Assembly: GCA_009869945.1 (NCBI GenBank)
Contig: WIXG01000002.1
Coordinates: forward strand, 496,001-560,000
Origin: Mesaphorura yosii
Lineage: Eukaryota > Arthropoda > Collembola > Poduromorpha > Tullbergiidae
Direction of reading: 5' to 3'
Length of the DNA: 64,000 nt
Shown here: positions 31,397 through 37,046 of the stretch, one piece after another
Numbering within the stretch: the stretch's first letter is position 1
Layout: each line of letters starts with the position of its first letter
Translations under genes and position numbers: made by a program
Notes under the pieces: model-generated
What the model saw: only the letters and a program-made list of their open reading frames with translations
Told to the model about the DNA's origin: nothing
The model's database searches: none

Positions 31397-33699
31397 TTAT
31401 ATCAAATTCGGCAATTTCAATGATGCAAGATTTACTCCATCGCCTTTGTATTCGCTGATTAGCTTCAGCAGAGCATTCTTCTTGGAACCATCCGAATTCT
31501 CCAATTCAATAACCGAGCTCAAGTTCAGCAGGACGTTTTCTTGAAGAGACTGTGGGATATTCTGCCGGACCGTGGTCTCCATTAAAGCAACGCTTTCCTT
31601 GACCTTTCCCAAGTACAGCAGACAAACCGCCATGTTGTTCAGCACCATGAAATTATCCGGTTGAATATGTGAGGCTTGCGTGAGCAATGCCAATGCTTCC
31701 GGGTAAGAATTTTGAGTGATTAGAATTAGCGCCGAGTCGACGAGAGTGTCCACTTGGTCCGAGTCTGACTCTAAAGTTCGCAGCTCCGATGCTTTATGGA
31801 AATACTCTTGCGCTGATGTCAAATCTCCGTGTTGAAGGAACAGTCGTCCAATCGCTGCTTTTAATTGTGGTCTGTGGCCTGGGTCGATCTCGCATAATCT
31901 CGTCAAGAATAGGAAGGCATTGTGATATTGCTGGGGACAGACGAACAGCATTTCAGAATTTTGCTGTGATTAAGCAAAAGTTTAAAGTTGAGGTACCTTT
32001 GCGAATAATGAAGAGTTCGCCAGTGAGTACAGCACATAAATCCGTCTCTCTTTCCAGATTTTGATTGCGGTGTTTACATCAGCTGCTTCTCCTAAACTTC
32101 CGCCTTCATGCAACCCACCCTCAAGATTTTTTAGAATCTAGAAGAGCCAGGAAATCAGTGACCATGAGACAATCATTAGAATTAAGATTCACACGCACCG
32201 AATTAACAGTGAGCAGCAATTTCGTCAATTTCTCCATTGTCTCGTTGGATTTTCGGAGATACTGTGGGATTTCTGCTGCGAGAAGTCGGAAGTGGAAAGG
32301 TACGAGAGACCCTTTTCGCTGACTGCTCAAATCTGGGTAATATTCGTAGTACATATCGGGATTCTCAAAATCATTGAAGAATGACACTTCGGACTCGGCT
32401 ATTACGAATTCTCGGACTCGCACGAGAAGAGAAATGCGAGTAAACCAAACCTGCATTAATTACAAGACAATGGCTCGTTATAAGTCTCAAAAGACCGAAA
32501 TGAAGTTTGGATATCACAGGTGAATTAAACTTACCTGAAGTGAATACGCAGTGTGCTTGCTGTAATGTCCTGCTTTGCCTGGTCCTTGACCGCAGAGAGT
32601 CAGGAGTCGTTTCGTCAAATTCAGCGCAGATCTGTAACATCCCAACTGTTGCCAGTTGGAAGAATTGTATTTAACATTGCACACTGGACTCAATCGGAAG
32701 GCAATTACCTTTATAAGTTCACGCAAGCCATTTTCATCTTGCTTGACATTATCTGCTGATAAAATTTTCCGCTTGGTGGCCTCCGCATCGCCAAAAATTC
32801 TCGCCACGTTGACGCCCACTTTATCCATCTTACAAGACATGGCATAGCGTTATCAGCATTCAACAATACACAACTCTTCTCAATCAAAATTACTGCATCC
32901 TTACAAATTCTTCGTCGTGCATTATACCAGGCATCGTCATGCTGGATTTGTCCGGGATGTAAGTCCCGGAGGGCTGTGATGTTATGGCGGATAGAATTGC
33001 CTTGGCGTCCTTCGAAGGAATCCAAATATCATAAGTCGGGTTATGGCTATCGTAAGACGAAGCTACGGGGACGTGGCTCGAGATGTTGAGGCTGGGAAAA
33101 ATTGGAGGAGGATTTACTCCCATCGACACAGGCGGGATATGCTGCATTTGTGGTGCCTGTGTGTGAATTTGGTCACCTGCAGTGAGCATAGCACCGCTGG
33201 TCACAGGCACGGGCAAAGGCGCAGCTGAAGCAACGTTCACAGGAAAAGGGACCTCGGGAGCATCAGAAAATAAGCTTTTGGCAGTTGGGAGTTCGGAGTC
33301 CACTTCTGCATCGGGCTCCGGTTGTTGACTTTTTGTCTCCTTCTCCTTAGGTGCTTGGAATAGTTTTCCGGCGTCGCCTGCACCTGCCACACCGGAAGAA
33401 GCTTCTCCTGACTTATCACTTTGAAGGTCATCGGCAAGCACAGACATCATCGAAGTTGTTTTAGACATTCCGGTTGTGGGTGTCGTTGCCAGTTGCTGCT
33501 GTGATTTGGGCGAAGTAGGCATCAGAAACGCGGAAAAAGCTTCGGACACAGACGCCTGCTCTTTTGTGGGTGAGTCCTTCTTTGGCACGGTGAATGCAAT
33601 CGTGTCAAAGACTGTCTTTGGTTCATTTGTGCTTGCGCTCGAGGAAAATACAGTACAGACTTTGGGCTCCTCATCGTCGTTGGATGAATTGGAGTCCAT
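31397..33699 (-). CDS. TRAPPC12: trafficking protein particle complex subunit 12
   Basis: Subunit of the metazoan TRAPPIII complex (ER-Golgi traffic, autophagy) with C-terminal TPR repeats. Exons: 33699-32905, 32828-32709, 32645-32535, 32450-32199, 32137-31997, 31930-31397; total 650 aa (human about 735). The first 265 residues are disordered and end in the conserved stretch TYDIWIPSKDAKAILSAI. Then come DNVKQDENGLRELI, LGCYRSALNLTKRLLTLCGQ, VWFTRISLLVRVREF, FHFRLLAAEIPQYL and TPR helices in the last exon (FLQHGDLTSAQEYFHKASEL, MVLNNMAVCLLYLGKVKESV). The exon 2 acceptor (TTGTAAG|ATGG) is weak-looking, but the phase and exon length fit. It is divergent from the CS-alpha-beta gene, 807 bp away. 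Confidence 0.88.
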
Positions 33700-34506
33700 T
33701 TTGCCTGCCTTCGATTCCAGATTCCAAAAACTCCAATTTCAACTCGCTGAATGGGGCTGTGGATAAACAAGCGAAAAACTGCTATAAACTTATTCATCAC
33801 ATGAAACCGCGTTTAATTAATTAAGCAAATAGTTTCAGGCGTAAGCGTAAGACGTGAGAGCTGGGTGAGTGTAACAAATGAAATACAGCCGCACTGACAG
33901 GATGACAGCGTGTTTATTTTTGGATGCGAAGTGTGAATTTATTCGCAGATAGCGTACAGTGCACACTTGCACACATCTGGCGTTCTGGCACGAGGCATTG
34001 GGCGCACTACCTGGCGCTACTTTGGCAGCGTTCCATAAACCAAGCCCCAAGTCACGCCATTAAATACTTTGGCCTCTAACGATGTAATTCCAGTACGCTA
34101 AATTGGTATTTGGGATAAAACTAAGAAAAATTACGAGCTCCTGTCGCATACGAGCATGAAGTAGCATCTTCAACTTTTAAGTTTCCATTGATTAGTGCTC
34201 GTGGCTCGTCGTAACGTTAGACTTCAGACCAATTTCCCTTCCTTCTGGCTCATGCTCAAATTTGTCGCGATTGTATACAATAAAAACGCTATGCTAATAT
34301 TCATTCGTAATGTAAAAATAGCACTCGCGGACTGTCAGGAAATTTTATAGGCGCAAACAAATGGACCTCACTTACAAACCGCTTCTGGTCTGAGTGCACT
34401 GCCAATTTTATCAGCCCACAGGTTATAATTACAAAGATCAACAAGAATCGAATCAAACGTGAGAGGTTCCGAGTTAGGCTGGCAGTTTAAGATTAAAAGA
34501 TTCAAA
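33700..34506. promoter_or_regulatory. divergent region, TRAPPC12 / CS-alpha-beta gene
   Basis: Contains both 5' ends. A TATA-like AGATTAAAAG lies close to the CS-alpha-beta ATG (34490-34499). I found no convincing NF-kappaB-type (GGGRNNYYCC) site by eye, so inducible immune control is neither supported nor excluded. Confidence 0.35.
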
Positions 34507-35818
34507 ATGAAGAGGTGTCTGCTAATTTTCGCCCTTGTGGCCTTCTTGGGCGATAAAAACGTGAGTGCTTTTGGAGTCCAGGATTTCAGAGGTGAGGCAA
34601 AATTCTGCACGCAAATCTGCGCGTCTTGCATCTAATCATTCCTAATTTCTGTCATCTTTCGTAACAATGAAGATCTGGACATATTTCCCGTGAACACGTA
34701 CAAAGACCGGATCATTTTCTACCTCGACTCGGACTGTGACCCGAGCGCGTGCCTTCTTTCGTGCTCCGCGCTGCATTTCGGACACGGTGTGTGCTCAGCA
34801 AATCCACGCTCGTGTGTGTGCACAAGCTCAGGCCAGGTTGACCTCACCTCAAGCAATTTAAGGACCGGATCCTCTTCAACCCGTAAGCACAAGGCAGAAT
34901 GGAATTTTTACAAGAAATTTTCAACTTCTTTATGTGCCTTATGCAGGAGTTTATCAATTTGGAAACGATTGGACAATTTTCCCGGAGTTGAAATGCCTTG
35001 CGAACTCCGCGTGCGAAAGGAGTTGTGGGGAGCAGAAGTTTAGAGAAGGGACCTGCTTAAAATTCAACACTCAGCACCCCGTCTCCGCGTGCGCTTGCAG
35101 ACGCCCCACGGCGGCCCTGCAGAAGGAAGCGACGATAACCGCACCTTTCCCAGTGCTGCCTAGCAAGCAAAGTTCGCCGCAAAACAAAAATTTCTGGAGA
35201 AATTGTTTTAAGCTTCACGAAGGAGCTAACTGAATAATACTGATTGCATTTTGTTACAGGAGTGGCCGTTTACAACAACTCGGTGTACCTCACCACCGAC
35301 CTGTGCCAGCAAAGCAACTGCGAGAAGTACTGCGAAAAATTCAACCTCGCAAATGGCGTCTGCCATTACTACAAGGGATCTTCCTGCAAATGCGATACGG
35401 GGATGAACGAAACGAGAATTGTTAGCGATTTGCAAATCAAATCTTACGCAGGAGGTGAGTCAAGACAAATAATCCAATCCACGTAAATCAGTCTCAAAAA
35501 TACTAGAATGAACGTTCGCTCTCAAATTAAGGCATTTACACACTGAACGGATGGCATTTGTTCGAGCACGACTCGTCGGTCGAGTGCACTGACAAACTTT
35601 GTGCTCCAGTCTGCCAATCTTGGGGATTCGAGAGTGAAGTGGCCTGTTTTCCAGGGAAGGGCATCACAAACGCGTGCGGCTGCAGGGAATACAAGTCAGA
35701 CGTTCCCTCAGCTGAAGAACTAGCCGCAGCTAGAAAGGATGCTGAGGGTTCTGCAGCACAACTTAAAGCGATACTTCCTCAATTTGCAGTCTTGCTCGTC
35801 CTTTGGTGCTTACAGTGA
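34507..35818 (+). CDS. secreted four-domain CS-alpha-beta (defensin-fold) protein with predicted GPI tail
   Basis: Not a family I can name. Exons: 34507-34591, 34673-34882, 34947-35171, 35260-35454, 35532-35818; 333 aa. Residues 1-21 are a signal peptide (MKRCLLIFALVAFL...). Four domains follow, each with six Cys in the order C-x(4-5)-C-x3-C-x(9-10)-C-x(6-11)-C-x-C: Cys 50-78, 115-149, 189-218 and 257-289. Domains 1-3 also have the Gly-x-Cys of the defensin gamma-core (GVC, GTC, GVC); domain 4 has VAC. Each is preceded by a similar aromatic strand. Exons 2-4 have phase-1 introns on both sides, and exon 5 begins in phase 1. The C-terminus (GSAA, spacer, then ILPQFAVLLVLWCLQ) looks like a GPI-attachment signal. 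The exon 3 donor (A|GTTCGC) is weak and was chosen by phase; reading through gives a stop at 35231-35233. Membrane-bound binding or antimicrobial roles are guesses. Confidence 0.8.
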
Positions 35819-37046
35819 ACTCTAACTTGTTCAATTGGCGATTTAATTGATTTCGGCGTTAATGTATTGATGCAGCTGCTTTCTCTTGTGATTTCTGTCC
35901 CAATTTGCTTTTTACGCGGATAGTGTTGTCTGATGCGGTTAGTCATTGCACTATTTGTGTTCAACAGAAATTCAGAACTGCTAGCAATAAATTGGAATTT
36001 TTTTTGCGACATCTCGGTGCGTTGAAAGCTTCTCGCGTTAAACCAAATGATAAAATTAAATATGAGTTGATCATTTGTGGAGTAAATGCACGCTGAACAC
36101 CGGCATCATGTCTGTCCAGAACACGCAACAGAATAGAATGTTGCATAGTACCACTTGTACCAACTTTGCGAATTCAACAAGTGGCACCGCAAACTGCACT
36201 AATTTATGACAGTTGTGGCGTAGATGCCATAATTATGAAGTATGAAATAAAATATTTGCACGTAAATACTAATGAAGACGTGATGCAGAAATCAATACTG
36301 CCCATTGACTAATTCCATAACTTACCAGAATGAAAAATATTCTAGGCTGACTTGATTCTCCTCCTGATCCGTTTAGAATCACGATCAGCAGTTTTCACCC
36401 GCTTTCTCCGGCGTAAAAGCACACAGGCGCAGCGAATTAGAGACTATCTGGACCACTGGGATTAAGTGAGAAAATCATAAACTTTCAAACGACATCAACG
36501 CGCCTCGCACGAGCCAATTCACTTTGTTTGCAAGCAAGCAGACTCGATAGAACCATTTTATCATTTAACAATTCGGCAGCGTCAGCAAGTTTAATTTCAA
36601 ACACTTTTCATTGGGGTTGCGATTGTGTTAACGTGTGCAATTTCGAACAGTGTGGGGTCTGACAAATAATTTAGCTACGACCTACGACTCCTACCTAATT
36701 AATGTGAGATTAACACAGTCGCACCAACAAAGTTGTGGCACAAAGCTCGAGTGTTGTGGTAGCTGCGGACTGCATACAAGTCAGTTTTTTCTCGCCCTTG
36801 CCTCGTTTTATTTTGCAGATCCCGTGCTTGTGAACGTACCAGCTCAGCTCCATCACCGTCCGTGGTCTGTGTCCATTGCATTCGTGTTTCTATTTCCATT
36901 CCATACGGTAGTCGCTGCATTCAGTCACGAACGAAAGAGGAAGCAGGAGTAAGTGCGCAGTAACTGGAGAGTGACAGAGCTTAGCAAAACAAACAGAAGA
37001 AGGTGCGAGTTATCATCGACAGATAAGTGATTTGGCGGAGCGAAAC
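35819..37046. other. intergenic, CS-alpha-beta gene to DAP1
   Basis: Holds the 3' UTR of the CS-alpha-beta gene (AATAAA at 35986-35991 is a candidate polyadenylation signal) and the promoter and 5' UTR of DAP1. A 105-codon open frame at 36635-36952 lacks any recognisable domain and is not called. Confidence 0.45.

Follow-up and report, generated by a model that had tools for sequence, protein, structure and literature searches.

The window analysed here is a stretch of 64,000 nucleotides from the springtail Mesaphorura yosii (contig WIXG01000002.1, positions 496,001 to 560,000, forward strand). At 34507-35818 on the plus strand it contains a five-exon gene for a protein with four tandem domains of six cysteines each. 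The exons splice into a single frame of 333 residues, with the start at 34507 and the stop at 35818 fitting exactly, and the four introns (64-88 bases) are all GT-AG introns in phase 1. The encoded protein begins with a signal peptide, judged by eye to cover approx. residues 1-21, continues with the four domains, one in each of exons 2-5, and ends with a hydrophobic C-terminus. An original prediction, made from the letters alone, had proposed one gene of five exons with a secreted product and a Gly-x-Cys motif in three of the four domains. Its coordinates, residue ranges and motif count were all reproduced on recomputation, the signal peptide supported secretion, and the single gene was supported by the frame, by the introns and by a paralogue with the same plan. 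Two splice signals are weak in the window gene: GTTCGC at the donor following 35171, and the acceptor preceding 35532, where a pyrimidine tract is missing. The paralogue supports both introns, since its own occupy matching positions and carry the ordinary signals GTAAGA and TGTGCAG. Judged from its sequence, the window gene is a real and well-formed gene.

The cysteine spacings were 4-3-9-6-1 in domain 1, 5-3-9-11-1 in domain 2, 4-3-9-7-1 in domain 3 and 4-3-10-9-1 in domain 4. All four domains, as well as all four of the paralogue, thus show the six-cysteine pattern C..C-x3-C..C..C-x-C of the cysteine-stabilised alpha-beta (CS-alpha-beta) type, and those of the window protein lie at the residues where domains with C-x3-C and C-x-C had been predicted. 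Gly-x-Cys occurs as GVC in domains 1 and 3 and as GTC in domain 2, and domain 4 has EVAC instead. Adjacent cysteine cores are separated by 36-39 residues. Proteins of this superfamily pair their cysteines in disulfides 1-4, 2-5 and 3-6. A regular expression for the cysteine pattern, composed only after the domains had been seen, matched exactly these four places when both strands of the window were searched in six frames, and it gave no match in 200 simulations of a 64-kb sequence that followed the dinucleotide transitions of the window.

The genome of the animal (93 Mb in 1127 contigs) was searched for relatives, and one other place with all parts of the gene was found. This paralogue lies on the minus strand of the same contig (C2:48220-49659), at a distance of 481 kb. 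The modelled protein is 353 residues long; 136 of 332 aligned residues were identical (41%), and all 24 domain cysteines were aligned with cysteines. The paralogue shares the four phase-1 intron positions and the hydrophobic end, and its domain 1 is interrupted by an additional phase-0 intron. By the Nei-Gojobori method (NG86) the nonsynonymous divergence (dN) was 0.56 and the synonymous divergence (dS) 4.2, the latter being saturated. Identity by codon position was 55, 66 and 37%, with the third positions least conserved. Given this shared plan and the codon pattern, both copies appear to be genuine genes with constrained proteins. Domains at the same position in the two proteins were 39-58% identical (four pairs), compared with 13-31% for domains at different positions (12 pairs); therefore the exon duplication preceded the gene duplication. 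Tandem duplication of a domain exon keeps the reading frame, since both exon ends are in phase 1. From these comparisons the four-domain gene probably arose via tandem exon duplication and was itself duplicated afterwards.

The fold was followed with profiles and with structure models. A profile built from the eight domains found 22 sequences in the PDB at E-values up to 10, and 20 of these were defensin-type peptides, with a best E of 0.016. The model of domain 3 had a beta-alpha-beta-beta topology with a mean predicted local distance difference test score (pLDDT) of 66, a moderate confidence, and its first 32 rows in Foldseek consisted entirely of scorpion toxins and plant defensins, with a best E of 0.086. 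The predicted CS-alpha-beta fold was thus upheld by the model of domain 3, and for domain 4 in topology only, as the matches of that model were unspecific and mixed with ribosomal and RRM-like folds. We concluded that the CS-alpha-beta type of the tandem domains is supported by the profile and by one of the two models.

Searches with whole sequences and family profiles gave less. The only row for the whole window protein in a phmmer search of the PDB was scorpine (E 1.2). The Pfam family Defensin_2 (PF01097) did not match the window protein and scored 13.8 bits with the paralogue, under the cut-off of 20.4; its search of the genome was empty, though the control gave no match anywhere. The best profile scores came from plant families of the same fold, the defensins or gamma-thionins (PF00304) and SLR1-BP (PF07333), a resemblance of fold. 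Proteins of these plant families carry eight cysteines. SLR1-BP reached 31.4 bits with the window protein, summed over four stretches, against a cut-off of 22.7. Domain 1 alone reached 22.7 bits, while the paralogue (17.8) and two single-domain relatives (18.1 and 21.5) stayed below the cut-off.

These two relatives, at C401 (L029 4052-4391) and C1057:6605-6980 (L030, minus strand), are complete two-exon genes with a signal peptide, a phase-1 intron and one six-cysteine domain, the splice phases having been read by eye. They stop two and three residues after the last cysteine, respectively, so that no tail is present, and each domain has a net charge of -1. A matching domain exon was found at C403 (L051) and C1030 (L052), both on the minus strand. 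All family counts are lower bounds, since the genome was searched one exon at a time and scores were given to the top candidates only.

Behind domain 4 the window protein ends with the 23 residues GSAAQLKAILPQFAVLLVLWCLQ. The last 16 of these, AILPQFAVLLVLWCLQ, have a mean hydropathy of 1.96, a value attained by 32 of 20,000 shuffled versions of the protein. The paralogue tail has a mean hydropathy of 1.42, reached by 316 of 20,000 shuffles. When searched from residue 26, the most hydrophobic 16-residue stretch of both copies was located at the stop or at most 4 residues from it. The usual signal for a glycosylphosphatidylinositol (GPI) anchor consists of a small-residue site with another small residue two positions on, followed after a short spacer by a hydrophobic end. 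Read by eye, G311 or S312 together with the small residues two positions further on fit this rule in the window protein, and on balance we lean towards a putative GPI anchor there.

The mature window protein has a net charge of -3 and an isoelectric point of 6.1, and the paralogue -8 and 5.7. The net charges of window domains 1 to 4 are 0, +1, +2 and -1, and the single modules of both proteins span -4 to +3. A furin motif was absent from both proteins, and the paralogue does not share the dibasic pairs found at 150 and 306 in the window protein. Neutral to acidic proteins without furin or shared dibasic sites argue against lysis and against the release of four peptides. Membrane lysis is thus unlikely, as judged from the charge of both proteins.

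The original prediction regarded a tethered, multivalent CS-alpha-beta protein as an undescribed architecture. This does not hold for the tandem part, which is an already known kind, published for X-tox (PMC2728511) and for nasonin-2 and -6 (PMC2853521). X-tox proteins, reported only from Lepidoptera, are secreted, defensin-derived proteins of five to eleven tandem CS-alpha-beta domains, for example Spod-11-tox, and they share with the window gene the tandem domains in a single secreted protein. The domains of Spod-11-tox are cationic and follow the consensus C-x4-C-x3-C-x7-G-x-C-x3-K/R-C-x-C, whereas the spacings and charges of the window domains do not fit it. For Spod-11-tox an immunoreactivity separated from antimicrobial activity and a membrane-associated form within haemocytes were reported, and it was not cut into defensin-sized pieces (PMC2728511). 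Nasonin-2 and -6 of Nasonia vitripennis have 4-5 CS-alpha-beta domains in tandem and lack signals for processing by proteases. In nasonin-6 every domain has an exon of its own, separated from the next by a phase-1 intron, an arrangement attributed to exon duplication; repeats were also found in fungal defensin-like peptides (PMC2853521). The window gene resembles the nasonin-6 type in its domain number, exons, intron phases and lack of processing sites, a likeness of plan. The peptides of that paper are presented as a set with net positive charge (PMC2853521), whereas the window protein is neutral to acidic and carries a hydrophobic C-terminal tail. In scorpion and other arthropod defensin genes the mature domain is encoded by one exon behind a phase-1 intron (PMC6435467). 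Those defensins are like C401 and C1057 in this and in their six cysteines, and differ from the four-domain, tailed window protein in being single-domain and tail-less. The four-domain genes can be derived from that published plan by tandem exon duplication.

The main new element is the putative tether. Among the open-access titles and abstract beginnings listed, no GPI-anchored arthropod protein with CS-alpha-beta or defensin domains was found, while papers with both terms exist (PMC12499507, PMC4853860, PMC9104911). The term GPI did not occur in the main texts of PMC2728511 and PMC2853521, nor did transmembrane in that of PMC2728511.

Our explanation is that, in a gene for a defensin-type peptide, one phase-1 exon would have been duplicated in tandem, giving four diverged CS-alpha-beta modules, and that the four-domain gene was then duplicated. 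The secreted protein would most likely be held on the outer cell membrane via a GPI anchor and display there four modules, jointly no longer cationic, whose ligands at the cell surface may be, for instance, partner proteins or the surfaces of microbes. Its role would be that of a multivalent recognition or adhesion molecule, neither a membrane-lysing peptide nor a precursor cut into single peptides. Taken as a whole, we place this explanation slightly short of an even chance. That a GPI-tethered, overall non-cationic four-module receptor or adhesion protein evolved here from secreted defensin-type peptides by exon duplication, independently of X-tox and the nasonins, is put forward tentatively. 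Several observations weigh against the explanation. The paralogue tail is less hydrophobic, contains a glutamate and ends with FRIYS, a poorer fit to the GPI rule. The modules are not uniformly acidic, with domain 3 at a net +2 and domains 2 and 3 of the paralogue at +3 each. A kappa-B-type site (GGGRNWYYCC) was absent from approx. 1.5 kb upstream of both genes and also from the whole window, a search of low power. Five of ten neighbouring frames matched Pfam at E 1e-3, all of housekeeping types (LTV twice, TPR, RING, septin), and no defence cluster was observed.

The proteins could also be a soluble rosary of defensin domains like X-tox or nasonin-6, secreted and unanchored, with the hydrophobic end a mere extension or trimmed off; the weaker GPI candidate in the paralogue speaks for this. 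It is the most serious alternative, but we consider it unlikely, as the hydrophobic maximum lies at or close to the stop in both copies and C401 and C1057, with their single domain, stop without any tail. Membrane contact does not cleanly separate the anchored from the soluble reading, because a membrane-associated form of Spod-11-tox was reported inside haemocytes (PMC2728511). A reproductive or epithelial protein of the surface or matrix, acting in gamete interaction or cuticle without an immune role and with the defensin fold as a generic scaffold, would agree with the diverged, non-cationic domains, and the best-scoring Pfam family, plant pollen-coat ligands of the same fold, may point the same way by analogy only; but no sequence feature points to any tissue, and we hold this to be improbable. 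Encoding of every domain by its own exon, with 36-39 residues between the cysteine cores, would also suit a polyprotein cleaved into four single CS-alpha-beta peptides of antimicrobial or signalling function. This appears highly improbable, and a precursor of single peptides was rejected, given that neither copy has a furin motif, that the dibasic pairs are not conserved in the paralogue, that the whole protein is not cationic and that Spod-11-tox was not cut to defensin size (PMC2728511).

If the GPI-tethered reading is true, a surface-tied tandem protein with two retained copies under purifying selection would have a concrete and testable role in tethered binding, and would suggest that the phase-1 defensin exon is a reusable building block, like immunoglobulin or EGF modules. 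The X-tox case showed that antimicrobial activity can be lost from a chain of defensin domains, and it does not reveal the replacement role. Since single-domain relatives are present in the same genome, it allows a direct comparison of the stages between peptide and array.

Features of the four-domain gene, in window positions
Feature	Position	Strand	Remarks
Exon 1	34507..34591	+	start codon, signal peptide (~residues 1-21, judged by eye), phase-1 donor
Exon 2	34673..34882	+	domain 1; counterpart conserved in paralogue, split there by one extra phase-0 intron
Domain 1 cysteine core	34735..34821	+	residues 50-78
Exon 3	34947..35171	+	domain 2; weak donor GTTCGC
Domain 2 cysteine core	34994..35098	+	residues 115-149
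Exon 4	35260..35454	+	domain 3
Domain 3 cysteine core	35304..35393	+	residues 189-218
Exon 5	35532..35818	+	domain 4, tail, stop codon
Domain 4 cysteine core	35585..35683	+	residues 257-289; without Gly-x-Cys
GPI-signal-like tail	35747..35815	+	residues 311-333; small G-S-A-A, spacer, hydrophobic stretch to last residue
Candidate polyadenylation signal	35986..35991	+	AATAAA, read by eye

Upstream of the gene, on the other strand, a 282-residue low-complexity frame (32893-33738) had no Pfam match at E 1e-3. Scans of the window with Rfam at gathering scores and for tRNA were empty. A plant origin or contamination, considered on account of the SLR1-BP and gamma-thionin matches, was rejected in view of 66 genome matches to the RR-type cuticle chitin-binding family and by the window genes, including the septin and the RING fragment, which we take to be parkin. 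The same 66 matches agree with the arthropod setting that had been assumed.

Apart from the four-domain genes, C401, C1057, C403 and C1030 form a scattered family of six-cysteine peptides with a single domain, and the last three have a C-F/Y-N-G-P stretch in common. Two weak, diverged tandem matches to this family were observed at C704 (L046; 22683 and 23766; E 0.007 and 0.05); the complete six-cysteine pattern was not found in that region, which is possibly decaying or split by an intron. The six genome matches of PF07333 were the window gene, C1057, C401, C770, C505 and C207. The match at C770 (17683-17799; L017, minus strand, near 1501-1617) is a short cysteine-rich frame with a signal-like start, C-x4-C-x3-C and C-x-C, and at C505 and C207 the six-cysteine pattern was absent on both strands. 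No relative on viral contigs was confirmed by tblastn. A second defensin-like class, in which C-x-C is combined with C-x3-CC or C-x2-CC, was detected at C703 (L047, minus strand, from 5433), C255 (L048, from 4261) and C380 (L045, minus strand). The C703 frame contains two such domains, and the gamma-thionin scores of C703 (17.0 bits) and C255 (18.4 bits) were both under the cut-off. At C15:107275 (L042 1465) a CS-alpha-beta-like domain precedes a stretch rich in Thr and Ser and an end of mild hydrophobicity, with a hydropathy of at best 1.13 over 12 residues. The family PBP_GOBP had four genome matches at E 1e-3 or better; these, like the diapausin matches given next, suit a hexapod without proving one. 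A tardigrade heat-soluble protein gave no match. Diapausin, present in all five springtails of PMC10051947, had four genome matches up to E 10, one of them over the Pfam cut-off, and these occurred in close pairs at C1035 (L053/L054) and C727 (L055/L056), which suggests tandem domains or genes.
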